45,238 nucleotides of DNA from Planctomycetaceae bacterium. Its GTDB lineage: Bacteria; Planctomycetota; Planctomycetia; Pirellulales; UBA1268. Below, piece after piece: positions 9,929 to 26,700 of the stretch (position 1 is its first letter; each line of letters starts with the position of its first letter). Position numbers and translations under genes: made by a program. The stretch spans positions 1 through 45,238 of the forward strand of contig WTHB01000176.1 of NCBI GenBank assembly GCA_011523305.1. The letters run 5' to 3'. The notes under the pieces were generated by a model, which was not told where the DNA came from, did no database searches, and saw only the letters and a program-made list of their open reading frames with translations.

Positions 9929-10133
9929 GTGGATCTCCTGAGGTGCGCGCACAGTGATAAGAAAACAATGGGGAGGACATGGAAGAGCGGAAAGGACGCC
10001 CCTGTGTTCGCCACTGACGTGCCTGCTCGTCCCGGTGGTCCGCAGCGTCGGCTCCTCCGGTGCAGTATAAAGGTTGTGTTCGTACGCTGCTTACACGGGA
10101 TCACCAGGGCTTTTCTGCTGGAGTGCTTCAAAC
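9929..10133. promoter_or_regulatory. Divergent promoter region
   Basis: This spacer separates the PhoD-like/SOUL pair (minus) from the sulfatase locus (plus), so it should hold both promoters. A perfect palindrome, GTGCGCGCAC, lies at 9943-9952, just upstream of the PhoD-like ribosome-binding site. A TATAAA at 10066-10071 on the plus strand is a possible -10, without a clear -35. Assignment is by position only. Confidence 0.4.
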
Positions 10134-12872
10134 ATGATTGCATTGTCTGATCCGCGAAAGATCTGTCCGGGTCGCCAGTTCAGTTGGTCGTTCCGGTTTG
10201 TGGCCCTTCTGGTGGCGTCGTTGCTGTCCGCCGTCAGCCTCCGGGCAGCCGAACAAAGCCGACCCAACGTGGTCCTCATCCTCTCGGACGATCAGCACTG
10301 GCGGGACTACGCCTTTCTTGGTCATGAGCAGTTGCGGACGCCGGCACTTGATCGGCTGGCAGCCGAGAGCCTCGTCTATACCCGGGGCTATGTGCCCAGC
10401 AGCCTCTGTTGTCCGAGCCTTGCCTCGTTGATCACTGGCCACTATCCGCATGAGCATCTGATTACCGGGAATGACCCACCAGAGCAGCCAGGGGTCACCC
10501 GACGGTCACCCGCAGGAAGAAAACTTTTTGAGGATGGCCGCGAGCAGATGAACCAGCGGCTGGAACGCTGGCTGACGCTGCCCAGGCTGTTGGGGCAGCA
10601 CGGGTACAAGAGCCTGCAGACCGGCAAGTGGTGGCAGGGGCACTTCTCGCGGGGTGGCTTTGACGAGGGCATGACCAAAGGCTCGCGGCACGGCGACGAG
10701 GGGCTCGATATTGGCCGAAAGACGATGCAGCCGGTTTACGACTTCATCGATCGATGCAAGGACGCCGAGCAGCCGTTCTTTGTCTGGTATGCCCCGATGC
10801 TGCCACATGATCCCCACGACCCGGCGAAGGAACTCGTGCAGCACTATCAGACGAAGACCGACAGCGTGCATGTTGCCCGCTACTGGGGCAACGTTGAGCG
10901 GTTTGATCAGACGGTGGGTGACCTGCTCACGCACCTTGATGACCAGGGACTCACGGAAAACACGCTGGTCGTCTATGTCTGTGACAATGGCTGGATCACG
11001 AACGCTGAGCGGGGCAGCTTTGCCGGTAAATCAAAACTTTCGCCGTACGATGGTGGTCTGCGAACGCCGATCATGCTGCGGCAGCCTGGCCGGATTGAGT
11101 CGGCCCGCAGCGAGGCCTTGGCGAGTTCCCTCGATCTGCTGCCGACGATCCTGACTCACTGTGAACTGCCTGTTCCCGAGGGGCTTCCCGGCCTCAACCT
11201 GCTTGATGTCCAAGCCGTTGCGGCCCGCAAGCAGTTGTTTGGGGCCTGTTACCAGCACACCCTGGTCGACCTCGATCAGCCGGGCCGCAGCCTCCTCTGG
11301 CGCTGGACGGTCAAGGACATGCCCGATGGAAAAACCTGGAAGTTGATCCTTCCAGTCACCCATGGCGTGGCAGGGGATCACCAGTTCCCTGCCTATGAGG
11401 CAAGGCGGGTCGATGCAACATCAGAAAAACGGTTTCAATCTGGCGAAATCGAATTATTCAACGTGGCGGTCGATCCCGATGAGACCAAGAACCTAGCGGC
11501 CGCTCACCCCGATGTCGTGAAGGCTCTACTGGCTGACCTCGACGGCTGGTGGAGGCCGCAGGCTCCAGCTGCCGCTGCGGGCCAAGCGGCGGCCGACCGG
11601 CGTAGGGTTCAGGTCCTGCCTGTGGCCGCCCGCCTGACACCATCTCAATTGTCTTCCTGGCCGCACTGGCGCGGTCCGGAAGGCACCGGGGTGGCCGCGG
11701 GCAGTGGCTATGCCAACGCGTGGAGCCCCGCCGAAAACATTCGGTGGAAGGTCGCCCTGCCGGGGTTGGGAGCGAGCACCCCGGCGGTCTGGGGTGAGCG
11801 GCTGGTGCTAACCTGTGGCATCGACGGCCGTGACGGGGTGCTTTGTTTCAATCGCGACGGCACGGAACTGTGGCGGCAGCAGCTTGGCGAGATTCGGCCT
11901 GGCAAGCACAAGAAGGCAACCGGCTGCAACTCCTCACCCGTCACGGATGGCGAGCATGTCTGGGTCTATTTTAAAAGTGGTGACCTGGCCTGCCTGTCGC
12001 TGGCCACTGGCCGGGTCGTGTGGAACACCAACTTGCAGGAACGCTTTGGGGAGGACACCCTCTGGTGGGATCTGGGGACGTCACCAGTCCTGACGGACAA
12101 GGCGGTCATCATCGCCGTGATGCAGTCCGGGCCGAGTTACCTGGTCGCTTTCGACCGGCAGACAGGCGAGGTGCTCTGGAAGCACGACCGAATGCTTGCG
12201 GCACCTGAGGAGGCAGCGCAGAGCTACTCGACCCCTGTGGTGCTCAAAGGGAATCCAGCCTGGGATGAGCCGGCAGAACTGCTCGTCGTCCTTGGGGCTG
12301 ACCATGTCACGGCGCACGATGCGGCCGACGGTCGTGAACTCTGGTGGGTTGGCGGCCTCAACCCAACCGAGCACAAATATTTCCGATCGATTGCCTCGCC
12401 GGTGGTGGCGGGTGAATACGTGATTGCCCCCTATGCACGGGGCCAGACCGTGACGGCAATCCGGCGGGGCGGTCGTGGGGATGTGACCGCCACGCATGTT
12501 GCCTGGACCCGTGAGCCGCTGGGGGCGGATGTGCCGACCCCTGCGGTGCTGGGTGGCCGTCTACTGATCTGTGGAGACAAGGGCGAGGTCAGCCTGCTTG
12601 ACCTGACCACCGGGACAACGCTCTGGGAGGAGCAGCTGCCGAAGCATCGCACCGCCTACAGTGCCTCGCCCGTGATTGTCGATGGCCGAGTGATTCTCAC
12701 TCGGGAGGATGGCCACTCTTATCTGCTCCGGTGGCCTGCCGCAGAGGCGGCGGGGCTCGAGGTGGTGGGTGAAGGCACCGTCGAGGAGATGACCGTTGCC
12801 ACACCGGTCTGCCTTGATGGCGAGATTTTCTTGAGGACGCATGACTCACTCTGGTGCATCGCGGCCGGCTGA
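10134..12872 (+). CDS. Sulfatase fused to PQQ-type beta-propeller, atypical active site
   Basis: 912 residues from the ATG at 10134, chosen because GGAG lies 10 bases upstream and a signal sequence follows (FVALLVASLLSAVSLRAAE). The frame is open 20 codons further. Residues 43-500 are a type I sulfatase: RPNVVLILSDDQ (metal-binding Asp pair), GKWWQG, and VVYVCDNGW with the DNG metal ligands. The signature normally read as CxPxR is CCPSL here (Cys92 to Leu96), so the arginine that supports the formylglycine is replaced by leucine. From about residue 525 a PQQ-type propeller follows (WPHWRGPEGTGVA, repeats with W and DG turns, GRVVWNTNL, TGEVLWKHD). This resembles outer-membrane beta-barrel lipoprotein propellers and PQQ dehydrogenase blades. 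It is the first gene of the plus-strand locus. Whether it still hydrolyses sulfate esters is uncertain. Confidence 0.9.
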   Translation: MIALSDPRKICPGRQFSWSFRFVALLVASLLSAVSLRAAEQSRPNVVLILSDDQHWRDYAFLGHEQLRTPALDRLAAESLVYTRGYVPSSLCCPSLASLITGHYPHEHLITGNDPPEQPGVTRRSPAGRKLFEDGREQMNQRLERWLTLPRLLGQHGYKSLQTGKWWQGHFSRGGFDEGMTKGSRHGDEGLDIGRKTMQPVYDFIDRCKDAEQPFFVWYAPMLPHDPHDPAKELVQHYQTKTDSVHVARYWGNVERFDQTVGDLLTHLDDQGLTENTLVVYVCDNGWITNAERGSFAGKSKLSPYDGGLRTPIMLRQPGRIESARSEALASSLDLLPTILTHCELPVPEGLPGLNLLDVQAVAARKQLFGACYQHTLVDLDQPGRSLLWRWTVKDMPDGKTWKLILPVTHGVAGDHQFPAYEARRVDATSEKRFQSGEIELFNVAVDPDETKNLAAAHPDVVKALLADLDGWWRPQAPAAAAGQAAADRRRVQVLPVAARLTPSQLSSWPHWRGPEGTGVAAGSGYANAWSPAENIRWKVALPGLGASTPAVWGERLVLTCGIDGRDGVLCFNRDGTELWRQQLGEIRPGKHKKATGCNSSPVTDGEHVWVYFKSGDLACLSLATGRVVWNTNLQERFGEDTLWWDLGTSPVLTDKAVIIAVMQSGPSYLVAFDRQTGEVLWKHDRMLAAPEEAAQSYSTPVVLKGNPAWDEPAELLVVLGADHVTAHDAADGRELWWVGGLNPTEHKYFRSIASPVVAGEYVIAPYARGQTVTAIRRGGRGDVTATHVAWTREPLGADVPTPAVLGGRLLICGDKGEVSLLDLTTGTTLWEEQLPKHRTAYSASPVIVDGRVILTREDGHSYLLRWPAAEAAGLEVVGEGTVEEMTVATPVCLDGEIFLRTHDSLWCIAAG

Positions 12873-12927
12873 TTGGCGATCAGCGACATGCGTCAGCCAA
12901 CGATTACTTTTTCAGGGAGACGTTCAT

Positions 12928-14091
12928 ATGGTGTCGGTTCGATGGATCTGTGCGGGAATCAGTGTCCTGCTGCTCGGCAGTGCGAATGTGCCGGCTGCTG
13001 AAACGCCGCCGGCCCGGCTGCTGGTGGTGACGGTGACCAGCGGCTATCGCCATGGATCGATCGACACGGCTGAGCCGGTGCTTGAGAAACTGGGCCGTGA
13101 GTCGGGTCTGTTCCATGTCAACTTTCTGCGAATGCCTGCCAACCGACTGCCGCAGCCGCGCCGGCCGCGGCGGGGCAAGCAGGTGAGCGACGCCGCCTGG
13201 GCAGCCCAGGAAGCGGAATTCAAGCAGGCCCAGCAGGCATTCCAAAAAGCTGATCAGCCCTGGCAGGAGGAACTGAAGCGACAGTTTGCGGTGGCCTTCG
13301 CGCCTGAGGCGCTTGCCCAGTTCGACGGGGTGATGTTTCTCAGCACGACAGGCGAACTGCCCATTCCGAATCTCGGGCTGTTCCTCGACTGGCTCAAGGC
13401 TGGTCATGTCTTCATCGGCGTTCATGCGGCGACCGACACGCTGAAAAGTTCAGATGCCTATGTGGAGATGGTCGGCGGTAACTTCGCCGGTCACCCCTGG
13501 ACTGCCCGCGGGGAGCACGGCTTCGTCAATCATGAGCCCACCCACCCGGCCGTAGCGATGTACCCAGACCGGTTTCGCTGGAAGGACGAGATCTATCAGT
13601 ACGGCCCCCGGTACAAGCTCGAGAATCAGCGGGTCCTGCTCTCAATCGACATGGCGGCGAGCACGCCCAAAATGCCCTGGCATGTCCCGGTTGCCTGGGT
13701 GCGGGATTACGGGCGGGGGCGGGTCTTCTACACGAACCTCGGTCACAATGATGCCACCTGGAAGGACGAGGCCTTCTGTCAGCACCTAGTTCAAGGGATC
13801 GCCTGGGCGCTTGGCCGGGTTGATGGGTCGGCTGCTCCCAACCCCGAGGTGCAGGCGGCCGAGTATCTCCGCAGTGTCCTCGCGGCAGCCGCAGCCGAGA
13901 CCGGCGCAGAGCATGACGTCCTGCGGGCCAAGGCTGACGCCTTGATTGCGGCTGACTCTGCCTGGGCTGTCCGCCTCAGGCCCCGTCTGCTGGCAATTCG
14001 ATCCATGGAACCAGTGGCAGCCAAAGCGGCGCTGGCAGACGTCATCGCGGAGCTGGAGTTGGGTGAGCCAGTTGGCAGTGGGGCGGAGTGA
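12928..14091 (+). CDS. ThuA-like domain protein, exported
   Basis: 387 residues from the ATG at 12928 (MVSVRWICAG), preceded by CAGGGAGACG at good spacing. A signal peptide ends near AAET. The ThuA-like fold (class I glutamine-amidotransferase-like, named for trehalose utilisation) is shown by LLVVTVTSGYRHGS, FDGVMFLSTTGELP, GHVFIGVHAATDT, GGNFAGHPW and a late GRVFYTNLGHNDATW. A charged, glutamine- and alanine-rich stretch of about 50 residues (near residues 70-120) is inserted in the first third and probably forms helices. The family is common beside PVC propeller/heme proteins, but its reaction is not established. It lies 55 bases after the sulfatase/propeller gene and 93 before the next, in the same direction. 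Confidence 0.88.
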   Translation: MVSVRWICAGISVLLLGSANVPAAETPPARLLVVTVTSGYRHGSIDTAEPVLEKLGRESGLFHVNFLRMPANRLPQPRRPRRGKQVSDAAWAAQEAEFKQAQQAFQKADQPWQEELKRQFAVAFAPEALAQFDGVMFLSTTGELPIPNLGLFLDWLKAGHVFIGVHAATDTLKSSDAYVEMVGGNFAGHPWTARGEHGFVNHEPTHPAVAMYPDRFRWKDEIYQYGPRYKLENQRVLLSIDMAASTPKMPWHVPVAWVRDYGRGRVFYTNLGHNDATWKDEAFCQHLVQGIAWALGRVDGSAAPNPEVQAAEYLRSVLAAAAAETGAEHDVLRAKADALIAADSAWAVRLRPRLLAIRSMEPVAAKAALADVIAELELGEPVGSGAE

Positions 14092-14184: not shown

Positions 14185-17100
14185 ATGGTTGATCAGGGTG
14201 ACTGCATCGCGGTGAGGAGTCTTCTCGGTCTCAGCATCCTGGCGTTCCTGTCGGCTGCTAGTGTCGCGGGCTCGGCGGCAGCGGCTCCGCCAAATGTGGT
14301 GGTGATCCTCGCGGATGACATGGGCTTTTCTGATCTTGGCTGCTACGGCGGGGAGATCGACACGCCTCACTTCGATCGCCTTGCTGCAGGGGGGCTGCGA
14401 TTCACGCAGGGCTACAACACCGCCCGCTGCTGGCCAACTCGCGGGGCGCTGCTGACCGGCTACTATGCCCAGGCGATTCGCCGCGACAGCATGCCTGGGG
14501 TCCGCGGTGGCGGCCAAGGAGAGCGGCCGGCCTGGGCTCGTCTGCTGCCCGAGTTGCTTGCTCCGTCCGGCTACCGGTCGTATCACTCTGGCAAGTGGCA
14601 TGTCGATGGTGAGCCCCTGAAAGAGGGCTTTGCCCATTCCCTCCGTATCGAAGGAGGCCAGAACGATTACTTTGATCCGGTGGGGGTGACGGTTGATGGC
14701 CAGCCGCTTCAAGGGAGTGAAACCTATTACCTCACCACCGCGGTAGGCGACCATGCTGCCGCCTGCCTGCGGGAGCATGCCCAACAGCACCCCGGTGCAC
14801 CCTTTTTCAGTTACATCGCCTTCACCTCTCCCCACTTTCCCCTGCAGGCTCCGCAAGCGCTGATCGACAAGTACCGGGCCCGGTACGAGGCTGGCTGGGA
14901 TGCCGTCCAACAGGCCCGGTATGAGCGCCTGGTCCAGCAGGGCATCGTTGACGCTCCCCTGGCGCCGATGGAACGAGAAGTTGGTCCGCCCTATGCCTTC
15001 CCGGAGGCAATCAAAAAATTGGGCCCCGGGGAGGTCAACCGGCCATTGCCGTGGGATTCGTTGACACCCGAGCAGCAGGCGTTTCAGACCACGAAGATGG
15101 CGATCCATGCAGCGATGATCGATGCGATGGATCAGGCCGTCGGCGCGGTGATCGCTCAGCTTGAGGCGATGGACGCGTTGGAAAACACGCTCATTCTCTG
15201 CCTGAGTGACAACGGCGCCTCAGCCGAGATCATGGTCCGGGGGAAGGGGCATGATCAGTCCCTGCCGGCAGGCGCATCGGGTACCTACCTCTGTCTCGGA
15301 CCGGGCTGGTCCAGTTGTGCCAACACACCCTTTCGGCGGCACAAGACCTGGGTCCACGAGGGAGGCATTGCCACCAGTTGGATTGCTCACTGGCCGGCCA
15401 GCATCACGACAGCTGGGGCCTTGCGGACTCAACCGGTTCACGTGATCGACATTGTGCCGACGGTGCTTGACCTGGCAGGTGTTGCAGCCCCGGTGGAGCA
15501 TGCCGGTGTCGCCGTGCCTCCGCTTCAGGGCCGCAGTTTTGCCGACTGCTTGGCCAGTGCCACGGCGCCTCCGCCGCATGAAACTCTCTGGTGGTGCCAT
15601 GACGGGCACCGGGCAGTGCGGCAGGGCGACTGGAAGCTGGTTGCGGCCAAGGGGGAGCCGTGGGAGCTCTACCACCTGGCCCACAATCGCACGGAACTCC
15701 ATGACGTCGCTGCCGCTGAGCCCGACCGGGTGAAAACGCTTGACCAAGCCTGGCAGACAATCGCCGCCGAAAACCTGCGGCTGGCAAACCTCGATGGCAA
15801 ACTTGATCAGCCTTTGAAAGAGCGGAAGAAAAAGCAACCAGCCCGAGCAAAGGCTTCATCAGAGAAACGCAAGCCCTCAGCCCAGCAATCAACAGCGGTG
15901 GGTCACCCACCCAATGTTGTGGTGATCTTCACGGACGACATGGGCTACGCCGATCCGGCTTGCTATGGCGGTACGTTTACGCCAACGCCTGCTATCGACA
16001 GGCTTGCCAATGAGGGCATTCGGTTCACAAACTTTTACGTTTCCCAGCCTGTCTGCTCAGCCTCACGAGCATCACTGCTGACCGGTTGCTATCCCAATCG
16101 AATTGGTATTCACGGTGCCCTCGGCCCACATGCGACCCATGGCATCGCAGCGTCTGAGACAACGTTGGCTGAACTGCTTCAGGCCCGCGGCTACCGTACC
16201 GCAATGGTCGGTAAGTGGCACTTAGGCCATCACCCAAAATTTCTTCCGACCCGTCACGGCTTTGATCAGTATTTCGGCTTGCCGTACTCCAACGACATGT
16301 GGCCGTTTCATCCGGCGGCGAAGCCAGGCACGTACCCACCTCTGCCTTTGTTTGAAAATGAAGAAGTCATCGACGCCGATGTAAGTCCTTCGGATCAGAC
16401 AAACTTGACCAAGCGGTACACCGAACATGCAGTCGATTTTCTTAAGCAGGCTGGGTTGGCGGCGGACCACAAGCCGTTCTTTCTCTATCTCGCACACTCA
16501 ATGCCACATGTGCCGCTATTCGCTAGTGAAGGTTTTCAGAGAAAGACATCTCACGGACTTTATGGCGATGTGATCGCTGAAATTGACGCTTCTGTAAACG
16601 CGGTACTGAACACACTCGAAGAAACTGGCCACCTCGACAACACGCTCGTGGTGTTCACGAGTGACAACGGCCCGTGGCTCTCCTACGGCAACCATGCCGG
16701 CTCAGCAGGAACACTGCGGGAGGGAAAAGGCACAACGTTTGAGGGTGGTGTGCGGGTGCCATGCCTGGCTCGGTTGCCCGGCCGCATTGCGGCTGGTCAG
16801 GTCAGCGATGAGCCGCTGATGACAATAGATCTCATGCCTTCGATTGCCCGCCTGACGGGAAAAGCTTTAGCGACCGATCGAATTGGTAACTGTCTGGTTG
16901 GGGGGAAACGGATTGATGGGCATGACAGGCTCGATTTGTTTTGTGGTGGAAGGCGTCGGCCCGGGCAACATGACACGTATTTTTTCTACTACCACCAAGC
17001 TGATCTTGAGGCAATTCGTCAGGGTGACTGGAAACTTTGCTTTCCCCATCAGTATCGGACGATGCAGGGTCAGCAGGCTGGCCAGGATGGGAAGCCCGGC

Positions 17101-19644
17101 CGCTACAAACAGCAAAAAATCGACCTGTCTCTTTATAACTTGGCTGATGATCCGGGTGAGCAGGATGATGTAGCCCTGAAAAACCCTGAGGTGGTTGCGA
17201 GGCTACAGGTAGCAGCTGACAAGGCCCGTGGTGATTTAGGTGACCGGCTCACGAAACGGGTCGGTTCAGGCCTGCGGCAGCCAGGCACGATTACTGAGCA
17301 CTCCGCCGCCCATCAAAACAGAGAGCCACGACTTCGCATCAAGCCGGTTGCCTTCGCCGCAAAAAAATCACCGCGTCTCATGGGGCGTCGTCCCAACATC
17401 ATCTACGTGATGACCGATGATCAGGGCTACGGTGACCTTGGGAGCCATGGAAACCCCCTTCTGAAAACACCGCATTTGGATCGTCTGCGAGACCAAAGCG
17501 TGCGACTTACTGAGTTTCATGTCAGCCCCACCTGTGCGCCGACCCGGGCAGCGCTCATGACCGGCCGGCATGAGTTTCACTCAGGTGTCACGCACACCAT
17601 TCACGAGCGCGAACGATTGGCTCTTTCAGCGACAACGCTTCCGCTGTTACTCAAAACAGCTGGCTACACCACTGGCATCTTTGGGAAGTGGCATCTTGGC
17701 GATGAAGACGCCTATCAGCCTGGTCAGCGGGGGTTTGATCGGGTGTTCATTCATGGAGCCGGCGGCATCGGACAGCACTTTCCTGGTAGCTGTGGCGATG
17801 TACCGAATAATGACTATTTCAGCCCGATCATTCGGAGCAACGGACGGTTTGTTCAAACGCGTGGGTACTGCACCGATGTCTTTTTTCGAGAAGCGGAAAC
17901 CTGGATTGAGGCCTGTAGTAAAAAAGATCAGCCCTTTTTTTGTTACCTGCCAACCAACGCACCGCACGGTCCTTTTATTCCACCTCGAAGTGGGGATGAA
18001 TCGTATCGCAGATTGTTGCAGGAATCTGGTGATGTCAATGAGCGGTTGATTGATCGCGTGGCTCCGTTCTACGCGATGATCGAAAATATCGATACCAACA
18101 TGGGCCGACTTTTGAAAAAGCTTGAAAGCCTGGGGCTCACCGAGAAAACCCTTGTTGTTTTTTCGACAGATAACGGTTCTGCAGTTGGAAGTCGGGTTTA
18201 CAACGCTGAGATGCGGGGGGCAAAGAACTCACCGTATCGAGGTGGTACGCGGGTGCCAGCTTTCTGGCGATGGCCAGAAACGCTGGCTCAGGGCATCGAT
18301 ATCGCTCAGGTCACAGCACACGTCGATGTGTTGCCAACGCTCTGTGAAATTGCCGGCGTTGATCTGTCAGCATCGGTGCAGAAAGCAGTGGAAGGTCGCA
18401 GCCTTGTGCCATTGCTGCTCAACAAAGACGCCAGGTGGCCTGATCGATCATTGATTACACACTGTGGGCGATGGAGTAGAGGCAAGGCATCAGAACACGC
18501 CTATGACAATTGCCGAGTGCGGGAAGGCCGCTGGAGCTTGGTGAACACGCAGAACAAGCCCGAGGCATGGGAACTCTATGACATTGAGGCGGATCCCGGT
18601 GAGCAGCACAATCTGGCGTCGAAGCATCCCGACGTCGTACAACGACTCGCAAACACCTACGACAATTGGTGGCAGCAGGTTCAGCCGGACTTGGTCAATG
18701 AGGATGTCGATGGCCCCGCTGAGAATCCCTTCCGGACGGCCTTTTGGCAGCAGTTTCATCCGCGTCCAACCTACGAGGATGTGCACTATGGCAAGCACCC
18801 AAGGCAGGTGCTTCATTTCTGGAAAACACCAAAAGCGACAGATTCGGAATCGGTACCACTTCTTTTATTCGTTCATGGTGGTGGCTGGATGGGTGGTAAC
18901 CGGTTGAGTGGCCTGACAGGTTTGCTTCAGCCAGTTCTTGATGCTGGTATTTCTGTTGCATCTGTTGAGTACCGTCGCATTCCTGATGCGATTGAGCAAG
19001 GTGTGGAGCCCCCAGTGAAGGCACCGGTAACCGATGCCGCTCGAGCCCTGCAGTTTGTACGAAGCAAGGCAGTTGATTGGCAGATCGATAAGACGCGTGT
19101 GGTTGCAGCCGGCGGTTCAGCCGGTGCGTGTACAAGTCTCTGGCTGGCGTTTCATGATGACTTGGCTGACCCCGCGAGCGACGATCAAGTTGCCCGTGAA
19201 TCAACCCGATTGGTTGGCGTTGCGGTCATGGGTGCCCAGACGACGCTCGATCCAAAACAGATGAAGGAGTGGACACCCAACAGTAATTACGGCGGCCATG
19301 CTTTTGGCTTCATGCCAAGCGTTGACACGCCGGTTTCACCGTTTGCCCGGTTCCTTGCCAGTCGTGAGAAAATTTTGCCTTGGATTAACGAGTATTCACC
19401 CTATGCACTCGTTTCGGCTGACGACCCACCGGTCTGGCTTTCATTTCGTGGGCCGCCTGCTCTCGGGCAGGACGAGAAGGATCCAACCCATACTGCAAAT
19501 TTCGGCGTGAAACTCAAGGAACGGCTCGACGCGGTTCGTGTACCGTGTCAACTGGTCTATCCCGGTGCGGCTGATGTCGAACATACGACACAGTCGGAGG
19601 CAATCATCAGTCTGCTGAAGCCGACGGCTGCGACTGTGAACTGA
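14185..19644 (+). CDS. Giant secreted protein: three sulfatases plus an esterase domain
   Basis: 1819 residues in one uninterrupted frame. GGGAGGC lies about seven bases before the ATG. There is a single signal peptide (to about residue 34). Module 1 (35-545) has ILADDMG, CWPTR (Cys82-Arg86), GKWHVD and LSDNGAS. A lysine-rich linker (545-572) leads to module 2 (573-1030), with IFTDDMG, CSASR (Cys624-Arg628), GKWHLG and TSDNGPW. A second basic linker (about 1030-1068) leads to module 3 (1069-1500), with VMTDDQG, CAPTR (Cys1117-Arg1121), GKWHLG and STDNGSA. All three keep the CxPxR-type signature (CxAxR in module 2) for formylglycine conversion. Module 4 (about 1526-1819) is an alpha/beta-hydrolase with HGGGW (1564-1568) and nucleophile elbow GGSAGA (Ser1645), of the acetylesterase/feruloyl-esterase-like type. 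Typical sulfatases are 450-550 residues. Only the N-terminus has an export signal, so the modules would be secreted as one chain. Likely role: stepwise desulfation and deacylation of a sulfated polysaccharide (inference). Confidence 0.93.
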   Translation: MVDQGDCIAVRSLLGLSILAFLSAASVAGSAAAAPPNVVVILADDMGFSDLGCYGGEIDTPHFDRLAAGGLRFTQGYNTARCWPTRGALLTGYYAQAIRRDSMPGVRGGGQGERPAWARLLPELLAPSGYRSYHSGKWHVDGEPLKEGFAHSLRIEGGQNDYFDPVGVTVDGQPLQGSETYYLTTAVGDHAAACLREHAQQHPGAPFFSYIAFTSPHFPLQAPQALIDKYRARYEAGWDAVQQARYERLVQQGIVDAPLAPMEREVGPPYAFPEAIKKLGPGEVNRPLPWDSLTPEQQAFQTTKMAIHAAMIDAMDQAVGAVIAQLEAMDALENTLILCLSDNGASAEIMVRGKGHDQSLPAGASGTYLCLGPGWSSCANTPFRRHKTWVHEGGIATSWIAHWPASITTAGALRTQPVHVIDIVPTVLDLAGVAAPVEHAGVAVPPLQGRSFADCLASATAPPPHETLWWCHDGHRAVRQGDWKLVAAKGEPWELYHLAHNRTELHDVAAAEPDRVKTLDQAWQTIAAENLRLANLDGKLDQPLKERKKKQPARAKASSEKRKPSAQQSTAVGHPPNVVVIFTDDMGYADPACYGGTFTPTPAIDRLANEGIRFTNFYVSQPVCSASRASLLTGCYPNRIGIHGALGPHATHGIAASETTLAELLQARGYRTAMVGKWHLGHHPKFLPTRHGFDQYFGLPYSNDMWPFHPAAKPGTYPPLPLFENEEVIDADVSPSDQTNLTKRYTEHAVDFLKQAGLAADHKPFFLYLAHSMPHVPLFASEGFQRKTSHGLYGDVIAEIDASVNAVLNTLEETGHLDNTLVVFTSDNGPWLSYGNHAGSAGTLREGKGTTFEGGVRVPCLARLPGRIAAGQVSDEPLMTIDLMPSIARLTGKALATDRIGNCLVGGKRIDGHDRLDLFCGGRRRPGQHDTYFFYYHQADLEAIRQGDWKLCFPHQYRTMQGQQAGQDGKPGRYKQQKIDLSLYNLADDPGEQDDVALKNPEVVARLQVAADKARGDLGDRLTKRVGSGLRQPGTITEHSAAHQNREPRLRIKPVAFAAKKSPRLMGRRPNIIYVMTDDQGYGDLGSHGNPLLKTPHLDRLRDQSVRLTEFHVSPTCAPTRAALMTGRHEFHSGVTHTIHERERLALSATTLPLLLKTAGYTTGIFGKWHLGDEDAYQPGQRGFDRVFIHGAGGIGQHFPGSCGDVPNNDYFSPIIRSNGRFVQTRGYCTDVFFREAETWIEACSKKDQPFFCYLPTNAPHGPFIPPRSGDESYRRLLQESGDVNERLIDRVAPFYAMIENIDTNMGRLLKKLESLGLTEKTLVVFSTDNGSAVGSRVYNAEMRGAKNSPYRGGTRVPAFWRWPETLAQGIDIAQVTAHVDVLPTLCEIAGVDLSASVQKAVEGRSLVPLLLNKDARWPDRSLITHCGRWSRGKASEHAYDNCRVREGRWSLVNTQNKPEAWELYDIEADPGEQHNLASKHPDVVQRLANTYDNWWQQVQPDLVNEDVDGPAENPFRTAFWQQFHPRPTYEDVHYGKHPRQVLHFWKTPKATDSESVPLLLFVHGGGWMGGNRLSGLTGLLQPVLDAGISVASVEYRRIPDAIEQGVEPPVKAPVTDAARALQFVRSKAVDWQIDKTRVVAAGGSAGACTSLWLAFHDDLADPASDDQVARESTRLVGVAVMGAQTTLDPKQMKEWTPNSNYGGHAFGFMPSVDTPVSPFARFLASREKILPWINEYSPYALVSADDPPVWLSFRGPPALGQDEKDPTHTANFGVKLKERLDAVRVPCQLVYPGAADVEHTTQSEAIISLLKPTAATVN

Positions 19645-19682
19645 ACCGCTGCTGGACGAAGATGCTGGGGGGAAGTGAAAAG

Positions 19683-21125
19683 ATGACGAGTTTGATTGAC
19701 ACATTAATTACCCTCGGGCTGCTCTTTGTGGTGACCTGCACTGGGAAGGCATTCGCTGACAAGCCCCGGCGACCGAACATTTTGTATGTCATCGTCGATG
19801 ACCAGTCACCCTTTGATTTTCCGTTTTATAATCCGGCCGCAACCCTTGATGCTCCTGTGATTGAACGGTTAGCGGCTGAGGGAATGGTATTCGATGCGGC
19901 CTATCAGATGGGCTCGTTCTCGGGCGCAGTCTGCACGCCGAGCCGTCACATGGTGATGAGTGGTCGGACCCTCTGGCACTTGCCGATCGGTCCAGGCATG
20001 CCGAAGCGCAAAAAGGGCCAGCCGAAAACGTTGTACACGCCGCCGCACTGTCCTCAGGGACTTGAGTCGAGCACGCTGGCGGCTGTTTTCAATGCCGCCG
20101 GGTACGACACGATGCGAACCTGCAAGACAGGGAACAGTTACGAAGGAGCGAACCGGCAGTTCACTGTCCGGCATGATGCTGGCAAGCGAGGCGGTACGCA
20201 TGAGACCGGCAGCGGCTGGCACGGCGATCAGGTGATGAACTATCTCAGTGAGCGGGAGCAGACCCGCGACACCGATCCGTTTCTTATCTATTTCGGCTTT
20301 TCCCACCCACACGACACTCGTGACGGAACGCCCGAACTACTTAAAAACTACGGTGCGACCAACCACGCTGATCAGACAAGCCTGCCTGTAGCCAACCTCA
20401 ACCAGCCGCCGCTGCCACCCAACTGGCTGCCGAAGCATCCCTTTGACCATGGTCACATGGACGCTCGAGATGAGGTTGCCGTGAGCGGGGTGTGGAGTAA
20501 CCGCGATGTGCGAACCATACGCAACGAACTCGGCCGAGAGTATGCCTGTAGCGAAAACATTGATCGACAAGTCGGCCGTGTGCTCGACAAGCTTGAGGCA
20601 ATGGGTGAACTCGAAAACACCTGGATTTTTTATACCTCTGATCACGGTATTGCGATCGGTCGGCATGGCCTGCAGGGCAAACAGAACCTGTATGAGCACA
20701 CCTGGCGGGTGCCGTTTGTCGTGAAGGGGCCGGGCGTGAAACCCGGTAGCCGGGTACCGGGTAACATCTACCTCGGTGACACGCTGGCGACCCTCTGTGA
20801 GATTGCCGGGATAGAGCCTCCGGAGACTAACGAAGGTACGAGCTTTCTTCCGGTGCTCGAGGGCCGGCAGCAGTCGGTTCGCGATACCCTTTACGGTGTC
20901 TACTGCGGTGGCCAGAAGCCGGGAATTCGCAGCATTCGACGGGGCGACTGGAAGCTGATCAAGTACGAGTCCCCCTCCGGCGGCTTGCACACACAGCTTT
21001 TCAATCTGCGAGAGAATCCACATGAGTTGCTTGCGGAACACCAAGTTGTGGCTGTTCGTGATGCCCTCCCACAGCTGCCCAGCCCCCCGCAGCAGAACCT
21101 TGCTGACGATCTAACGCACCAGTAA
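19683..21125 (+). CDS. Secreted type I sulfatase
   Basis: 480 residues from the ATG at 19683, chosen because GGGGGAAG precedes it and the residues that follow form a signal peptide (MTSLIDTLITLGLLFVVTCT). The frame is open seven codons further. It is a Cys-type sulfatase: RPNILYVIVDDQ (metal-binding Asp pair), signature CTPSR at Cys84-Arg88, then YTSDHGIAIGRHG (a DHG variant of the DNG metal motif), which is seen in iduronate-2-sulfatase- and choline-sulfatase-like groups. It follows the four-module gene by 38 bases, so the two are probably co-transcribed. A formylglycine-generating enzyme is needed for activity and is not encoded in this window. The sulfate ester it acts on is unknown. Confidence 0.92.
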   Translation: MTSLIDTLITLGLLFVVTCTGKAFADKPRRPNILYVIVDDQSPFDFPFYNPAATLDAPVIERLAAEGMVFDAAYQMGSFSGAVCTPSRHMVMSGRTLWHLPIGPGMPKRKKGQPKTLYTPPHCPQGLESSTLAAVFNAAGYDTMRTCKTGNSYEGANRQFTVRHDAGKRGGTHETGSGWHGDQVMNYLSEREQTRDTDPFLIYFGFSHPHDTRDGTPELLKNYGATNHADQTSLPVANLNQPPLPPNWLPKHPFDHGHMDARDEVAVSGVWSNRDVRTIRNELGREYACSENIDRQVGRVLDKLEAMGELENTWIFYTSDHGIAIGRHGLQGKQNLYEHTWRVPFVVKGPGVKPGSRVPGNIYLGDTLATLCEIAGIEPPETNEGTSFLPVLEGRQQSVRDTLYGVYCGGQKPGIRSIRRGDWKLIKYESPSGGLHTQLFNLRENPHELLAEHQVVAVRDALPQLPSPPQQNLADDLTHQ

Positions 21126-21220: not shown

Positions 21221-24200
21221 ATGACCCGATCGAGGTGGCAGCCGAGAGTTCTGCTGGTGGCATGTTTGGTTTCGGTGCATGCTGTTGCTGCCGAAGATTT
21301 TTCGGACCATGCCCTCTTTCTCGACACCGCTCCACGGCCGGCGGCCTGCGAGCCAGCGGCTACGACGTTGCCGTTGCAGTTAAATCGGGGCGACCGGATC
21401 TGCCTGATTGGCAACACCCTGTTTGAACGCGCTCAGTTGTTCGGGCAGGTGCCGGCGACGATTCAGGCTGGCTTCCCCGAGCATGAATTGGTGATTCGCA
21501 CACTCGCTTGGTCAGCCGATGAAATCGATCTGATGCCCCGGCCGGAGAACTTCGCCGACCTCGAGCAGCATCTCACTTACGCAAAAGCCGATGTCATTCT
21601 TGCTGCTTATGGCTTCAACGAGTCATTTGCCGGCGAGGGCGGCCTGCCGGTGTTTCGCACGCGACTGGCTGCCTTTCTGGAACGACTGAAGACCAAGGCA
21701 TTTAACGGTGAGTCGGCCCCGCGGATCGTCCTGGTCTCGCCTATCCCGAACGAAAATGTGACGGGTGTTGCTGCTGCTGACAGCAACAACGCGAACATTG
21801 CGACTTACACCTCCGCAATGCGTGAGGTAGCCGCCGCGCAAGAGGTTGGTTTCGTCGACGTTTTCACGCCGCTGCTTGAACCCATGGCGGCGGGGGGAGA
21901 CCTCACGATCAACGGCTGCCATCTCACACAGGCCGGCTATACGATTTTTGCTAAGGCCCTGTTTGCAGGCTGTTTCAATCGGCAGTCTCCGGTCATCAGT
22001 GAGACGCTGCGGCTAGCTGTCGTTGATCTGGAGCGGCAGTTCTTCCGCCGGTACCGGCCACTGAACACATTCTATTACACCGGTGGCCGCAGCGAACGGT
22101 ATGGCTATCTCGACTTCCTGCCAGCGATGCGGAACTTCGAGCTCATGTGTGCCAACCGGGACCGCCGGATCTGGGACCTTGCGCATGGCCGGCCGGTGCC
22201 GGACGCGGTCGATGATTCCAATCTGCCACCGCTACCTGCCGTGAAGGAGACCCGTGGTGCCAACGAGTGGCTGCCCGCCACCGAAGAGCAGCAGGCTTTC
22301 AAGGTCGATCCCCGATTTGAAGTCAACCTATTTGCGGGAGAGGAGCAGTTTCCGGAAATCGCCAACCCAATCCAGGTCCGCTGGGACAACCGCGGCAGGA
22401 TGTGGGTCTGCACCTCGCAGGCGTATCCCCATGTCTATCCCGGGCAGGAGCCGCACGACCGGCTGGTGATCCTTGAAGACACGGACGGCGATGGCCGAGC
22501 TGACACCTCGAAGATTTTTGCCGACGATCTCCATGTGCCACTCTCGTTTGAGTTCGGTGACGGTGGGGTCTACGTTTCCGAACAGCCCCACCTGACCTTT
22601 CTGGCTGATACCGACGGCGATGACCGGGCCGACGTCCACGAGGTTTTGCTCTCCGGCTTTGGCACGGAAGACTCGCACCACTCGCTGCACGACTTTATCT
22701 GGACACCCGATGGCGCCTTGCTGTTCCGTGAATCGATCTTTCATCACACCCAGGTCGAAACCCCCTATGGCCCGGTTCGTCAGCAGAACAGCGGCTGGTT
22801 CCGCTATGAACCGCGGATCCACCGACTGACGTCCCTCGGCACCTATCCCAGCACCAATCCCTGGGGCGTGACGTTTGACCCGTGGGGGAACCATGTGGCC
22901 AGTCACCCGATCTTCGCTGAAGCCTTTCATGCGCTCGACCCGCCGTATCCTCAGCAGCATGCGGCACCGGTGGGCCTGCAGGCCTATTCGGGCACCTGTG
23001 GGCAGGCCTTTGTCGATGCTCCGGGGTTTCCACAGGAACTTCAGGGCGGCTTCATCAAGGCTCGCTACAAGCCGACCAACCGGATTGAGATCCACCGCTG
23101 GGTGGAAAATGCCTTTGGCTACAACGAGCAGTACGTCAGCGATCTGATCTTTTCGACAAACCTCAGCTTCATCCCAGTCGATCTTCACTTTGGCCCTCGT
23201 GGAGCCCTCTACGTGGTCGACTGGTACAACCCAGTGAAGGGACACGCCCAGTATTCGTTGCGGGATAGCCGTCGCGATCGTGGGTCAGGCCGGATCTGGC
23301 GGGTGACCGCCAAAGCTGGCCAGCTCGGCGAGATGCCGTCGTTCGTCGGGGCTGGTGCGTCCGAGTTGGCCAAACTCCTCGGTCACCCCGAGTTTCGGAT
23401 TCGGTATCTCGCCACGCGGGAGTTGGCCAGCCGCGAGCGAACTGGCGCAGCCGCCGCGATCGACCAGTGGCTGGTCGGTCTGGAGGCAGAGGATCCCCAT
23501 CGATTGCGGCGGCAGGCTGAAGCAATGGCAGCCTTTTCGACAATTGGAGTGGTGCGGCCAGCACTCCTCGCGGAGCTTGCCTCCAGCGACGACCACCATG
23601 CCCGGGCAGCAGCGATTCGGCAGCTGCGGTTCTGGCATCAGTCGTTGCCTGACAGCCAGGAACTGCTCATGCGGGCGGCTGCGGATGAATCGGGACTGGT
23701 GCGGCTGGAGGCGGCGCTTGCCGCCAGCTGGATCGGCACGCCTGCGGCCCTGGAGGCAGTCCTTGGCATTTTTCGCCGACCCCTTGGTGGCCATCTGGTC
23801 TATGCGGCGGTCGGTGCGCTTGAATCAGCTCCACTGAAGCGGCACTGGCAGAACGACCCCGCCAGTCCTGTGCCGAGTCTGCTCAAGCGTGTTAGGCGGT
23901 CATTGGATATCCGTGAGCCGCAGGCCAAAGGGAAAGACCGCACCTTCGACCGCCGGCCGGAGACAGTGGAGGTGCGGATTTCCTGCGAGCCCGAGCGGAT
24001 GCTCTTCACCACCCGGCAGTTCAGCGTGCGTCCGGGTCAGCCGGTCAAGCTGGTGTTCACGAACCCTGATGCAACCGACCACAACCTGGTACTCGTGCAG
24101 CCCGGCAAGCTTGCAGAGGTCGGCATGGCGGCCAACGCCATGGCCCGCGATCCCAAGAATGCGACGAGTGATTTTGTTCCTGAGAGTAAGCGGGATTTGA

Positions 24201-24931
24201 TCATTGCGGCGACGCCGATGATCGGGCCGACCCGGAAGTCACTGGTGCATGTCCTGCGGTTTGAGGCCCCAACAGAGCCTGGGGTGTATCCTTATGTCTG
24301 CACTTTCCCGGGACACTGGATCGTGATGAACGGCTCGATGGTGGTCGCTCGCGACGCAGCCGAAGCTGAGCGGTTGCTGGAAGCCTGCCAGCCGACGATC
24401 GTGAAGGCGTGGAGTCTCGAAGATTTTCCCGAAGTGAAAACCAGCCGGGACGAAACCGTGCTCGCGCGGGGCATGCACGCCTTCGTCAAGGCGCAGTGCA
24501 ACCAGTGCCATGTAGCAGCCGGCCACGGCGTGAACCTCGGGCCAACGCTGGCCGAGAGTGTCAAAAAACTGCGAGGGCGTGAACTGCTGTCCCACCTGCT
24601 TGACCCGTCGCTGAAGATTGACGACCGGTACCGAACAGTTCAGTTCGTGTTGGACGACGGCCGAGTGGAGTCGGGGGTGCTTGCCGGTGAGACTTCAGCG
24701 GCATGGAAGATTCGCCCCAATCTGCTCAGGCCTGATGACATCAAGCTGATTGTGAAAGAGACGGTTGACGAGCAGATTCCTTCAAAGGTTTCACCAATGC
24801 CCGCGGGGCTGCTCAACGTCCTCACCCGAGATGAAATCATGGCCCTGGTTTCTTTCGTGGAAGCAGGCGATCAGCTTCCGGCTGGCCTGGTGCCCGATCA
24901 CGGGCTGGCGCCAGCCCAACCAGCCCAATAA
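21221..24931 (+). CDS. Multidomain redox protein: SGNH, propeller, HEAT, cupredoxin, cytochrome c
   Basis: 1236 residues from the ATG at 21221, with a GTG three codons earlier also open. A signal peptide (to about residue 24) leads to an SGNH-hydrolase-like domain (about 55-260), where the usual GDS block is GNT (IGNTLFER) and the C-terminal block is NGCHL. A PVC membrane-bound-dehydrogenase-type propeller follows (about 360-700: GRMWVCTSQAYPHVYPG, EDTDGDGRAD, LYVVDWYNP), then HEAT-like helices (700-890). A cupredoxin domain (about 920-1045) keeps azurin/auracyanin-like copper ligands His954, Cys1027, His1032 and Met1036. A cytochrome c domain with CNQCH (1093-1097) and a PVC heme-binding tail (LLSHLLDPSLKID) ends the protein. 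One chain thus carries a possible substrate-oxidising propeller, a copper site and a heme. It is the last gene of the plus-strand locus and converges on the next gene with 26 bases between. Confidence 0.92.
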   Translation: MTRSRWQPRVLLVACLVSVHAVAAEDFSDHALFLDTAPRPAACEPAATTLPLQLNRGDRICLIGNTLFERAQLFGQVPATIQAGFPEHELVIRTLAWSADEIDLMPRPENFADLEQHLTYAKADVILAAYGFNESFAGEGGLPVFRTRLAAFLERLKTKAFNGESAPRIVLVSPIPNENVTGVAAADSNNANIATYTSAMREVAAAQEVGFVDVFTPLLEPMAAGGDLTINGCHLTQAGYTIFAKALFAGCFNRQSPVISETLRLAVVDLERQFFRRYRPLNTFYYTGGRSERYGYLDFLPAMRNFELMCANRDRRIWDLAHGRPVPDAVDDSNLPPLPAVKETRGANEWLPATEEQQAFKVDPRFEVNLFAGEEQFPEIANPIQVRWDNRGRMWVCTSQAYPHVYPGQEPHDRLVILEDTDGDGRADTSKIFADDLHVPLSFEFGDGGVYVSEQPHLTFLADTDGDDRADVHEVLLSGFGTEDSHHSLHDFIWTPDGALLFRESIFHHTQVETPYGPVRQQNSGWFRYEPRIHRLTSLGTYPSTNPWGVTFDPWGNHVASHPIFAEAFHALDPPYPQQHAAPVGLQAYSGTCGQAFVDAPGFPQELQGGFIKARYKPTNRIEIHRWVENAFGYNEQYVSDLIFSTNLSFIPVDLHFGPRGALYVVDWYNPVKGHAQYSLRDSRRDRGSGRIWRVTAKAGQLGEMPSFVGAGASELAKLLGHPEFRIRYLATRELASRERTGAAAAIDQWLVGLEAEDPHRLRRQAEAMAAFSTIGVVRPALLAELASSDDHHARAAAIRQLRFWHQSLPDSQELLMRAAADESGLVRLEAALAASWIGTPAALEAVLGIFRRPLGGHLVYAAVGALESAPLKRHWQNDPASPVPSLLKRVRRSLDIREPQAKGKDRTFDRRPETVEVRISCEPERMLFTTRQFSVRPGQPVKLVFTNPDATDHNLVLVQPGKLAEVGMAANAMARDPKNATSDFVPESKRDLIIAATPMIGPTRKSLVHVLRFEAPTEPGVYPYVCTFPGHWIVMNGSMVVARDAAEAERLLEACQPTIVKAWSLEDFPEVKTSRDETVLARGMHAFVKAQCNQCHVAAGHGVNLGPTLAESVKKLRGRELLSHLLDPSLKIDDRYRTVQFVLDDGRVESGVLAGETSAAWKIRPNLLRPDDIKLIVKETVDEQIPSKVSPMPAGLLNVLTRDEIMALVSFVEAGDQLPAGLVPDHGLAPAQPAQ

Positions 24932-24957: not shown

Positions 24958-26100
24958 TCACGTTGGGTCGAAGATTTGAATTTCGAAGCCGAGTTTGCAG
25001 GACTGGCACGCAGAGCGACCGAGGGAAAACGACTGGTCAAGTCCGCAACGAGGACATTGAACATGGATTGCTGACAGGGGCTGGTTCGATGCTGCGACCG
25101 GCTCACTCGGCGCGTTTTCCAGTCGCATATTCCTTCGGCTGATATACGCAATCGCGATGGTTCCAGCTGAGGCCACAATCGCCGAAGCAATCGTCACCCG
25201 CACCAGCAGTCCGGTCCCGCTGGCTTCGGTAATCACAAGTGTGTCGAGACAACACGCGCAGGCTATCACTGTGGTGAGTACAGCCGGCCGCAGCCATTTC
25301 TGGCTGTCGTGGAGCGTTGCCAGAAGTAACAGATTGGCATGGAGTACGACGGCACAGAGTGAGCCTATCGAAAACGTGATTTTTTCGAGCCACGTGGTCG
25401 TCGGATAGCCCTCAAAGATCAGCACAACGGTCAGCCCATACCCGATGACAGCTGCGGCAACACCAATCCACCGCCATTGCTGACGGGAGTGAAAGGTGTG
25501 GCCAATCAAACAGCCTGCCGCTGCACTCGTCCATGCTGTCAGGGCGACGCCGGTGAAAAAGATCTCTGGGCTATTCGAAAGGTCTAGCCAGATCGCAACC
25601 AGCCAGCAGATGAAACTTGGAACAGCCAATACCGCCAGAAGCAGCCCAGACATTCGCTGATTCGGTCGCTCAGCAAGCCAGAGTCCACCCGTCGCCTGAT
25701 AAAAGCCAGCAACGATAGCGATCGCTGTTCCCCACATTTTTAGTTCGTCGCCAACGTCCCAGATGGCGAGCAAGGAAAATAGATAGAACCCAGCAGCGCC
25801 ACCATCAACCAACCGGCGAAGGCTTGCTCGTTTCAACGCAAGTCGATCGATTGATTGCCAGAGTGCGGCTGAAACACCTGCCGTCAGCAGCGCCGTGCCG
25901 ACCACTCGCCCGACTACGTCAAAGCTCGCCGTGAGGACTGCCCCCACCCCGCACACGGCTGCGATCCCCAGCGACCACAGCATGACTCGAAACATCAGGT
26001 CGGACCGCCGGAAGCCGTTGCTTCCATCGCCAGCGTTTTTCATGGGCAGAGATGCTTCGCTATCAGAGTCCCCGGTTTCCAAAGACATGTCATTCGCCAT
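24958..26100 (-). CDS. Polytopic membrane protein with C-terminal zinc ribbon
   Basis: 380 residues with AGGAAAC just upstream of the ATG. A polar N-terminal tail of about 35 residues precedes about ten hydrophobic segments (for example SLGIAAVCGVGAVLTA, GLLLAVLAVPSFICWLVAIW, FSIGSLCAVVLHANLLLLAT, IASAIVASAGTIAIAYIS). The cytoplasmic C-terminal tail holds two Cys pairs (CPRC and CQSC, 16 residues apart) that look like a small zinc ribbon. I do not recognise the family. The combination suggests an integral membrane protein with a metal-stabilised regulatory or protein-binding tail. It converges with the multidomain redox gene and diverges from the DUF485/symporter operon. Confidence 0.8.
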   Translation of the reverse strand: MANDMSLETGDSDSEASLPMKNAGDGSNGFRRSDLMFRVMLWSLGIAAVCGVGAVLTASFDVVGRVVGTALLTAGVSAALWQSIDRLALKRASLRRLVDGGAAGFYLFSLLAIWDVGDELKMWGTAIAIVAGFYQATGGLWLAERPNQRMSGLLLAVLAVPSFICWLVAIWLDLSNSPEIFFTGVALTAWTSAAAGCLIGHTFHSRQQWRWIGVAAAVIGYGLTVVLIFEGYPTTTWLEKITFSIGSLCAVVLHANLLLLATLHDSQKWLRPAVLTTVIACACCLDTLVITEASGTGLLVRVTIASAIVASAGTIAIAYISRRNMRLENAPSEPVAASNQPLSAIHVQCPRCGLDQSFSLGRSACQSCKLGFEIQIFDPT

Positions 26101-26286
26101 AAATGTTTCCTGTCAGGGAATGTGGTGTGTGATTGTTCCCCGGCGCAAGGCAAAGATACCTCAGCATACGTGCCCAGACACTGAGATGGTAACGCGGGAG
26201 AGCCGAAGAACTGCTCGTTGAAGATCGGAGCGGATCGGGCCCCGAGATTCGCGGTGACAACAACCTGCCCGAAAGAGTTGGTGGCT
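26101..26286. promoter_or_regulatory. Divergent intergenic region, upstream part
   Basis: This part of the 314-base spacer lies between the zinc-ribbon membrane protein (minus) and the symporter operon (plus). It should contain the minus-strand promoter and probably the start of the plus-strand transcript. No clear -35/-10 pair was found on either strand. Confidence 0.4.
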
Positions 26287-26392
26287 GCCCGCAGCCTGAG
26301 AAGTGAGCCAATCAACGGGAAGAAGGCGGGCTGCGGGCTTGCCCGCAGTTGGGTAGACTTCTGAGGTCGTGGCCGAGAGGCCAGAGGTTTTT
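26287..26392 (+). promoter_or_regulatory. Structured leader of the DUF485/symporter operon (candidate)
   Basis: Several pairings are visible by eye on the plus strand. CTGCGGG (26331-26337) pairs with CCCGCAG (26342-26348) across a CTTG tetraloop. CCTGAGAAGT (26295-26304) pairs with ACTTCTGAGG (26357-26366) with one mismatch and encloses that hairpin. TGGCC (26370-26374) pairs with GGCCA (26379-26383) across a GAGA tetraloop, followed by a T5 run at 26388-26392. GCCCGCAG also occurs at 26287-26294, so CTGCGGGC has two alternative partners. The ribosome-binding site of the DUF485 gene begins about 10 bases after the T run. The layout resembles an attenuator or riboswitch-like leader. No known class is recognised, and GC-rich DNA gives such pairings by chance fairly often. 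Confidence 0.4.
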
Positions 26393-26414
26393 GGGTGCGT
26401 GTAGGAAGAGACCA

Positions 26415-26669
26415 ATGGGGAATGACCACAATGGGCAGGCGCAGTCGGGCAGTCGCAGTCGGCGGCTCGGGATGCAACTGTTTCTCGTCTACGTGCTGTT
26501 GTATGCCGGCTTCATGGGTGTTGTGCTGTTTCGCCCCGATGCCCTCTCCTGGCGTCCGTTCGGCGGCGTCAATCTGGCCATCGCCTATGGCATGGGATTG
26601 ATCGCAGCCGCATTCATCTTGGCAATGATCTACATGGCAGCCTGCCGCAGCGACACCGCAGACCGCTGA
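26415..26669 (+). CDS. DUF485 (YjcH-like) small membrane protein
   Basis: 84 residues from the ATG at 26415 with AGGAAGAGACC just upstream. Two hydrophobic segments are visible (LFLVYVLLYAGFMGVVLF and AIAYGMGLIAAAFILAMIYM) with a basic start, the usual form of DUF485. DUF485 proteins are found directly upstream of ActP-type acetate/solute symporters, as here, where the symporter starts 31 bases later. The role is thought to be accessory to the transporter and is not defined. The two proteins are probably translated from one transcript. Confidence 0.85.
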   Translation: MGNDHNGQAQSGSRSRRLGMQLFLVYVLLYAGFMGVVLFRPDALSWRPFGGVNLAIAYGMGLIAAAFILAMIYMAACRSDTADR

Positions 26670-26700
26670 ACGAAGCGGTTTCTTCACAAGGACTTTCACG

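Follow-up and report, generated by a model that had tools for sequence, protein, structure and literature searches.

The window analysed here is a stretch of DNA of 45,238 nucleotides from a Planctomycetaceae bacterium (contig WTHB01000176.1 of assembly GCA_011523305.1, positions 1 to 45,238 of the forward strand). One of its open reading frames (ORFs), which lies on the forward strand, is open for 1236 amino acids and has a GTG three codons upstream as a possible alternative start, codes for a protein predicted to be secreted (Table 1). In this protein, an SGNH/GDSL-like domain, a beta-propeller, HEAT repeats, a cupredoxin domain and a c-type heme domain follow each other in one polypeptide. 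From its domains and from natural fusions in its relatives, the protein is considered a candidate for electron transfer in the breakdown of sugars or sulfated glycans.

Domain Organization of the Gene Product

Above the gathering score, Pfam identified Lipase_GDSL_2 (residues 81-241, 42.0 bits, cut-off 32.9), DUF7133 (from residue 355, 211.7 bits in two stretches), HEAT_2 (residues 780-867) and Copper-bind (residues 917-1042, 28.4 bits, cut-off 21.2). In NCBIfam, TIGR02604 was matched with 218.8 bits and thereby passed its cut-off of 122.2, and the heme domain TIGR02603 was matched with 65.3 bits (E 5.4e-18), which is slightly below its cut-off of 68.15, the homology being clear nonetheless. 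The same series of domains had been proposed in an earlier note made from the sequence alone, with which both databases agree, the terms "SGNH-like" and "propeller" being understood as fold names only. The putative signal peptide was read by eye from a basic n-region, a hydrophobic core and A-V-A ahead of E-D. An AlphaFold model of the full chain gave a predicted template modelling score (pTM) of 0.60, the region of the heme motif having low confidence, and a model of the cupredoxin and heme domains together gave a pTM of 0.67 and a predicted local distance difference test score (pLDDT) of 86.5.

The TIGR02604/TIGR02603 and DUF7133 family is already catalogued, without a characterised function. 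With the PVC-type heme-binding CxxCH proteins of this family (TIGR02604 plus TIGR02603; DUF7133), the window protein shares the propeller, the C-terminal CxxCH domain, secretion and the phyla in which they occur; it differs in the additional SGNH fold and cupredoxin, neither of which is required by the family model, and in a TIGR02603 score 3 bits under the cut-off. Related PSCyt/PSD proteins with carbohydrate-binding modules and sulfatase neighbours were described for Verrucomicrobia by He et al. 2017 (PMC5615132), where their function was stated to be entirely unknown. In the literature searched (subscription journals and domain-architecture databases were outside its scope), the SGNH-DUF7133-HEAT-cupredoxin-cytochrome c architecture was not found, nor were the copper-plus-heme arm, an ancestry of DUF7133 shared with GSDH, the dead SGNH site or the fusions with sulfatase and ThuA.

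Table 1. Features of the copper-heme gene and of its neighbours in the window.
Feature	Positions	Strand	Basis
Whole gene: SGNH-DUF7133-HEAT-cupredoxin-cytochrome c protein, predicted secreted	21221..24931	+	Pfam and NCBIfam
Probable Sec signal peptide, residues 1-24, MTRSRWQPRVLLVACLVSVHAVAA	21221..21292	+	read by eye
SGNH/GDSL-like domain, residues 48-255; Thr66 at the nucleophile position, Asn231-x2-His234 in place of Asp-x2-His	21362..21985	+	
DUF7133/TIGR02604 beta-propeller, residues 355-698, GSDH/AA12-related	22283..23314	+	
HEAT repeats, residues 715-895	23363..23905	+	
Cupredoxin domain, auracyanin/azurin type, residues 912-1043; ligands His954, Cys1027, His1032, Met1036	23954..24349	+	
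Short linker, about 33 residues, invariant Trp1064	24350..24448	+	
c-type heme domain, residues 1082-1214; CNQCH 1093-1097; probable second axial ligand Met1193	24464..24862	+	
Sulfatase fused to a PQQ_2-type (BamB-like) propeller, 932 residues, first gene of the same-strand run	10074..12872	+	
ThuA gene, same strand as the copper-heme gene	12841..14091	+	
1819-residue chain: three complete sulfatase domains, then a BD-FAE/alpha-beta-hydrolase esterase domain	14185..19644	+	
Sulfatase gene immediately upstream, gap of about 95 base pairs	19662..21125	+	

The Cupredoxin Domain

Of the relatives of the protein, 33 were found when 84,980 species genomes were scanned, and more were added by surveys covering 294 genomes of Planctomycetota, 289 of Verrucomicrobiota and 196 of the same order. 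Residue counts for the copper ligands, the SGNH domain and the propeller refer to an alignment of 79 homologues, and those for the heme domain and the linker to 34 aligned sequences carrying both cupredoxin and heme domain.

The four putative copper ligands His954, Cys1027, His1032 and Met1036 were found to be invariant (79/79), with Cys1027 and His1032 spaced as C-x4-H, followed by H-x3-M to Met1036. By sequence, the best relatives of the domain in the PDB are the auracyanins (E 1.7e-12), to which the predicted fold was also matched in a fold search (Z 18.3, root-mean-square deviation 1.6-1.8 over 120 residues, 31-36% identity). Because of these matches and the conservation of the ligands, the motif is not a chance resemblance, and by its cupredoxin fold and its His, Cys, His, Met ligand set the domain is assigned a type-1-copper-like site. 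The azurin-type blue copper pattern recognised in the earlier note was thus confirmed at the level of fold and ligand set, and its residue numbers were exact (His954 within D-H-N 953-955, the three further ligands, and CNQCH at 1093). Azurin proper was not reached, since TIGR02695 scored 31.5 bits against a cut-off of 105.1. In contrast to auracyanin and azurin, with which it shares the fold and all four ligands, the cupredoxin of the window protein is part of a large multi-domain chain and not a free carrier.

The Heme Domain and Its Connection to the Copper Site

Cys1093, Cys1096 and His1097 of the CxxCH motif and the distal Met1193 were conserved throughout (34/34), as is characteristic of a c-type cytochrome domain, and Met1193 is probably the other axial ligand of the heme. 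A relative of the domain detected by profile is Kustd1711 from an anammox planctomycete (PDB 7zs0, E 3.8e-12), a di-heme cytochrome which is homologous to the C-terminal heme domain of the window protein but has neither a copper domain nor a propeller. The hemes of Kustd1711 have His and Met as ligands and, when Ca is present, potentials close to +350 mV (PMC11791136); a heme located downstream of a blue copper would therefore be energetically sensible. In two fold searches with the two-domain model, a cytochrome fold was not among the matches listed; this list was filled by cupredoxins, so that the result is not evidence against a heme fold.

The linker between the two domains is 32-39 residues long in the clade of the window protein, the heme-plus clade, and 43-59 residues long in a second clade with extra sequence ahead of the cupredoxin, which is a PA14 domain in the member that was scanned. 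Trp1064 in the linker was invariant in the two-domain sequences (34/34). The conservation of both ligand sets, of the linker and of Trp1064 suggests that the coupling of copper and heme sites is under selection. Since both sites lie in one chain, separated by about 33 residues and with strictly conserved ligand sets, a copper-to-heme relay, as it had been proposed in the form of intramolecular transfer by the earlier note, is a reasonable assumption and plausible from the sequence. However, the proposal has to be limited by the relatives in which the heme is missing.

The heme domain was absent in all 13 Verrucomicrobiota loci found and in the Planctomycetota loci L052 and L053, where the chains end 1-2 residues past the cupredoxin. 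The presence of such relatives implies that the copper domain can do without a heme in its own chain. A split-off cytochrome gene was sought beside the heme-less Verrucomicrobiota genes, where none was directly adjacent and CxxCH genes were located farther off in L033 only. A tree of 66 rows computed by maximum likelihood requires two changes of the heme label. All 46 heme-plus rows that share the type of the window protein fall into a single clade (support 100), which is nested among heme-less rows, and the PA14-type rows are heme-plus too. These two changes fit either a gain on two occasions or a loss followed by a regain.

This distribution bears on the possibility that the chain is a collection of domains without intramolecular transfer, in which the redox modules serve outside partners and the single chain results from the shuffling of giant secreted proteins in Planctomycetes, Verrucomicrobia and Chlamydiae (PVC). 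The loss or gain of the heme in at least two changes, the shuffled architectures and the very large number of paralogues, with 34-41 matches in several verrucomicrobial genomes, are in agreement with such a collection. A linker kept at 32-39 residues within the heme-plus clade and a tryptophan that is never replaced would be unexpected under free shuffling, and this explanation is considered unlikely. Among the Verrucomicrobiota, the genomes G294-G300 contain 15-41 matches to the window protein each, which include short ORFs of 155-260 amino acids covering the cupredoxin domain alone; these could be free-standing cupredoxin partners.

A type 1 copper and a c-type heme in one chain with the cytochrome at the C-terminus are also present in the three-domain copper nitrite reductases RpNiR and PhNiR (PMC13324648). 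In a three-domain copper nitrite reductase, the heme and the type 1 copper are 10.6 Å apart in the crystal, whereas the tether gave no fast transfer in solution, and small-angle X-ray scattering (SAXS) suggests a distance of about 40 Å (PMC13324648). Since the tether does not make transfer fast in this enzyme in solution, one chain by itself is no proof of fast intramolecular transfer. The identity of the window protein as a nitrite reductase of this type was rejected, because two cupredoxin domains and a type 2 copper site are required, and a single Copper-bind domain with no recognised type 2 copper site was identified; its N-terminal half is also unrelated. In the RpNiR and PhNiR fusions the electrons run from heme to copper and to the catalytic site (PMC13324648), and a reverse flow of this kind, with heme and copper supplying electrons for a reduction or an activation of oxygen at the propeller or the SGNH domain, can be envisaged for the window protein as well. 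It is rated as highly improbable, since Pfam revealed no type 2, trinuclear copper or other metal site in the chain, the high potential of the heme relative (+350 mV) makes the heme a better acceptor, and the family ties are to sugar and sulfate catabolism.

The SGNH-Like Domain

The "hydrolase fold" of the earlier note stands as a fold, with the Pfam match given above and a GDSL lipase (4q9a, Z 15.9) in the fold search, but the catalytic Ser and Asp of a hydrolase are lost. At residue 66, the position of the nucleophile in block I, Thr was identified in 55 of the 71 resolved sequences outside the PA14 group, Gly, Met or Leu in 11 and Ser in only 5, and in the PA14 group it is Ala or Gly. Residue 231 in block V is Asn in 77 of the homologues and Asp in two, and His234 is kept in 78/79. 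Gly64, Asn133 and His234 are retained in the window protein. Since neither the nucleophilic Ser nor the block V Asp is conserved, the domain is probably not a hydrolase, and an active esterase or hydrolase role was rejected as the default assignment.

The Propeller and Its Relation to PQQ-Dependent Dehydrogenases

In the fold search, the closest solved folds for the propeller were found in AA12 (Z 19.1), followed by the pyrroloquinoline quinone (PQQ) domain of Coprinopsis pyranose dehydrogenase, sGDH and Asd (Z 17.5-19.0). When a profile built from 26 propellers was aligned by hhalign to ten planctomycete GSDH proteins, the probability was 96.7% (E 4.5e-10). Searching the PDB directly by sequence with the profile of the propeller gave nothing useful, so that the homology to GSDH rests on hhalign and the fold search. 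By this comparison, a relationship of DUF7133 (PF23500) to GSDH (PF07995), the superfamily of glucose/sorbosone (PQQ) dehydrogenases, can be detected. PF07995 itself gives weak matches within long ORFs of about 1100-1450 amino acids.

Five residues of the GSDH site, His116, Asp135, Gln143, Arg183 and Asn184 in the numbering of the L093 protein, are invariant or nearly so in the GSDH proteins. We take them to correspond to His144, Asp163, Gln168, Arg228 and Asn229 of sGDH. The window propeller keeps two of them, the His as His487 and the Asn as Asn546, and has lost three, with Asp135 replaced by Ile506, Gln143 by a gap and Arg183 by Thr545. His487 is kept in all homologues as part of an invariant His486-His487 pair. 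In addition, Asp484, His675, Arg681-Asp682 and Arg685-Asp686 were identified as invariant, forming polar clusters together with the His pair and Asn546. Two D-x-D-G-D-x-x-A-D loops are also present, which are likely Ca sites.

In 27 carrier genomes, PqqC was not found by a profile that detects it with 300-333 bits in two other planctomycetes (G252 and G795), and PqqE was found nowhere above the cut-off. Because of the three lost site residues and of both results on PQQ synthesis, a standard PQQ-dependent oxidation at the propeller is unlikely. The assignment as a PQQ dehydrogenase was not adopted: fold and profile homology were found, the full set of site residues and a synthesis of PQQ by the host were not. 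Thus, of the substrate oxidation at the propeller that the earlier note had suggested, the fold of a PQQ sugar dehydrogenase remains, while most of the site residues and the cofactor supply that go with it do not. In its strict form, with a PQQ quinoprotein oxidising a sugar and the electrons passing from copper to heme within the chain, this explanation is quite improbable; the conserved His487 and Asn546 speak for it in addition to the homology, and the absence of the heme from many relatives speaks further against it. The host may, however, scavenge PQQ. The resemblance to the PQQ sugar dehydrogenases (GSDH, sGDH, Asd and the AA12 pyranose dehydrogenase) is one of propeller fold and profile, and like the window protein the Coprinopsis AA12 enzyme is a multi-domain redox protein, the title of its PDB entry naming a PQQ domain. 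The invariant His pair may serve another chemistry, or the propeller may have a pure binding role.

A binding role is the core of a further explanation, by which the protein would be a non-catalytic electron wire or docking protein, with the SGNH domain and the propeller as dead-enzyme modules that attach to a glycan, to the surface of the cell or to a partner enzyme, and with the copper-heme arm serving a separate dehydrogenase. The retention of Gly64, Asn133 and His234 after the loss of the catalytic Ser and Asp, and the loss of most of the GSDH site, would fit such a role. The same fold without PQQ is a binder in the non-enzymatic hedgehog-interacting protein (Z 18), and relatives of the window protein have added carbohydrate-binding PA14 or F5/8-C domains. 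The polar clusters of the propeller, which are invariant across two phyla, exceed the usual needs of binding, and on balance this explanation appears somewhat unlikely.

Gene Neighbourhood and Natural Fusions

The copper-heme gene is preceded on the same strand by the sulfatase and ThuA genes listed in Table 1. Sulfatase genes were also identified close to two verrucomicrobial forms, those of L032 and L041. In L014 (4510-9627), L016, L018, L042 and L111, the complete copper-heme chain has a sulfatase fused to its N-terminus, giving a protein of about 1700 amino acids with the order Sulfatase-SGNH-DUF7133-HEAT-cupredoxin-cytochrome c. ThuA is fused to the chain in at least two other lineages (L020, L021 and L023; L121 and L128), and the verrucomicrobial L107 gave a weaker ThuA match.

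In other relatives the chain is divided. The SGNH-propeller-HEAT part is a gene of its own with the heme domain in the next gene in L078, L079, L080, L082, L083 and L090; in L078, the one that was scanned with Pfam, HEAT repeats precede the heme domain in the second gene. In L081, the SGNH-propeller-HEAT part and the heme are located in one chain without the copper domain. A single chain of 1783 amino acids with the order ThuA-SGNH-DUF7133-F5/8C-cytochrome was identified in L084 (2546-7894, minus strand). The 1819-residue chain with three sulfatase domains is split or re-fused in homologues, and in L014 a part of it is joined to the homologue of the sulfatase that lies immediately upstream of the copper-heme gene in the window.

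Proposed Role of the Protein

We assign a probability of roughly 45% to the reading that the protein, a member of the TIGR02604 "PVC heme-binding" family, is secreted (periplasmic) and transfers electrons in the catabolism of sugars or sulfated glycans. The domain content, the ligand conservation, the short conserved linker and the secretion signal seen by eye are its basis in sequence and fold; metal binding, electron direction, substrate and catalysis belong to the inferred mechanism. In this mechanism, the SGNH-propeller-HEAT body would bind or oxidise a carbohydrate-type substrate, alone or with sulfatase and ThuA partners. Electrons would enter the copper one at a time, pass to the heme of the same chain and be delivered to a soluble cytochrome or an oxidase. 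In the Verrucomicrobiota, the copper would have to pass them to a separate carrier, since the chain lacks a heme domain there.

Several points weigh against this assignment. A catalytic site was not identified in the chain, the propeller has lost the three GSDH site residues, PqqC was not found in the carriers, and the heme domain is missing from the Verrucomicrobiota loci, L052 and L053. The fusion to a sulfatase is, judged from the chains compared, confined to one lineage. Furthermore, 82 sulfatase matches were counted in the 3.5-Mb host genome (G000). With sulfatases so common in the host, the sulfatase neighbourhood alone is a weak argument, and the fusions are the stronger one. A few of the matches in G000 are split pieces of one domain, and many lie in multi-domain chains.

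A more far-reaching form of the electron-transfer assignment would be a new class of secreted copper-heme oxidoreductases, in which a propeller of PQQ-enzyme descent would work without PQQ and oxidise (sulfated) sugars bound to the chain itself or to a fused sulfatase or ThuA, and the copper-to-heme relay drains the electrons to respiration; this is regarded as speculative and unlikely to hold in full.

Planctomycetes and Verrucomicrobia contain many large secreted proteins with cytochrome domains. The subfamily described here joins a recognisable electron path, a blue copper followed by a heme, to a propeller that is now assignable to the superfamily of sugar dehydrogenases. Through fusions that occur in nature it is connected with sulfatases and with ThuA, and an oxidative processing of sulfated glycans follows from this as a testable hypothesis. 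The heme-less variants of the Verrucomicrobiota and the copper-less variant L081 are built-in controls for such work.

Other Genes of the Window

Directly downstream of the copper-heme gene, two ORFs on the opposite strand (24958-26100 and 26040-26699) gave no Pfam match above the cut-off. At 562-5809 on the minus strand, a PSCyt1-PSCyt2-PSD1 protein of 821 amino acids adjoins a protein of 934 amino acids, the C-terminal heme domain of which is homologous to the heme domain of the copper-heme protein (C57:3047-3439).

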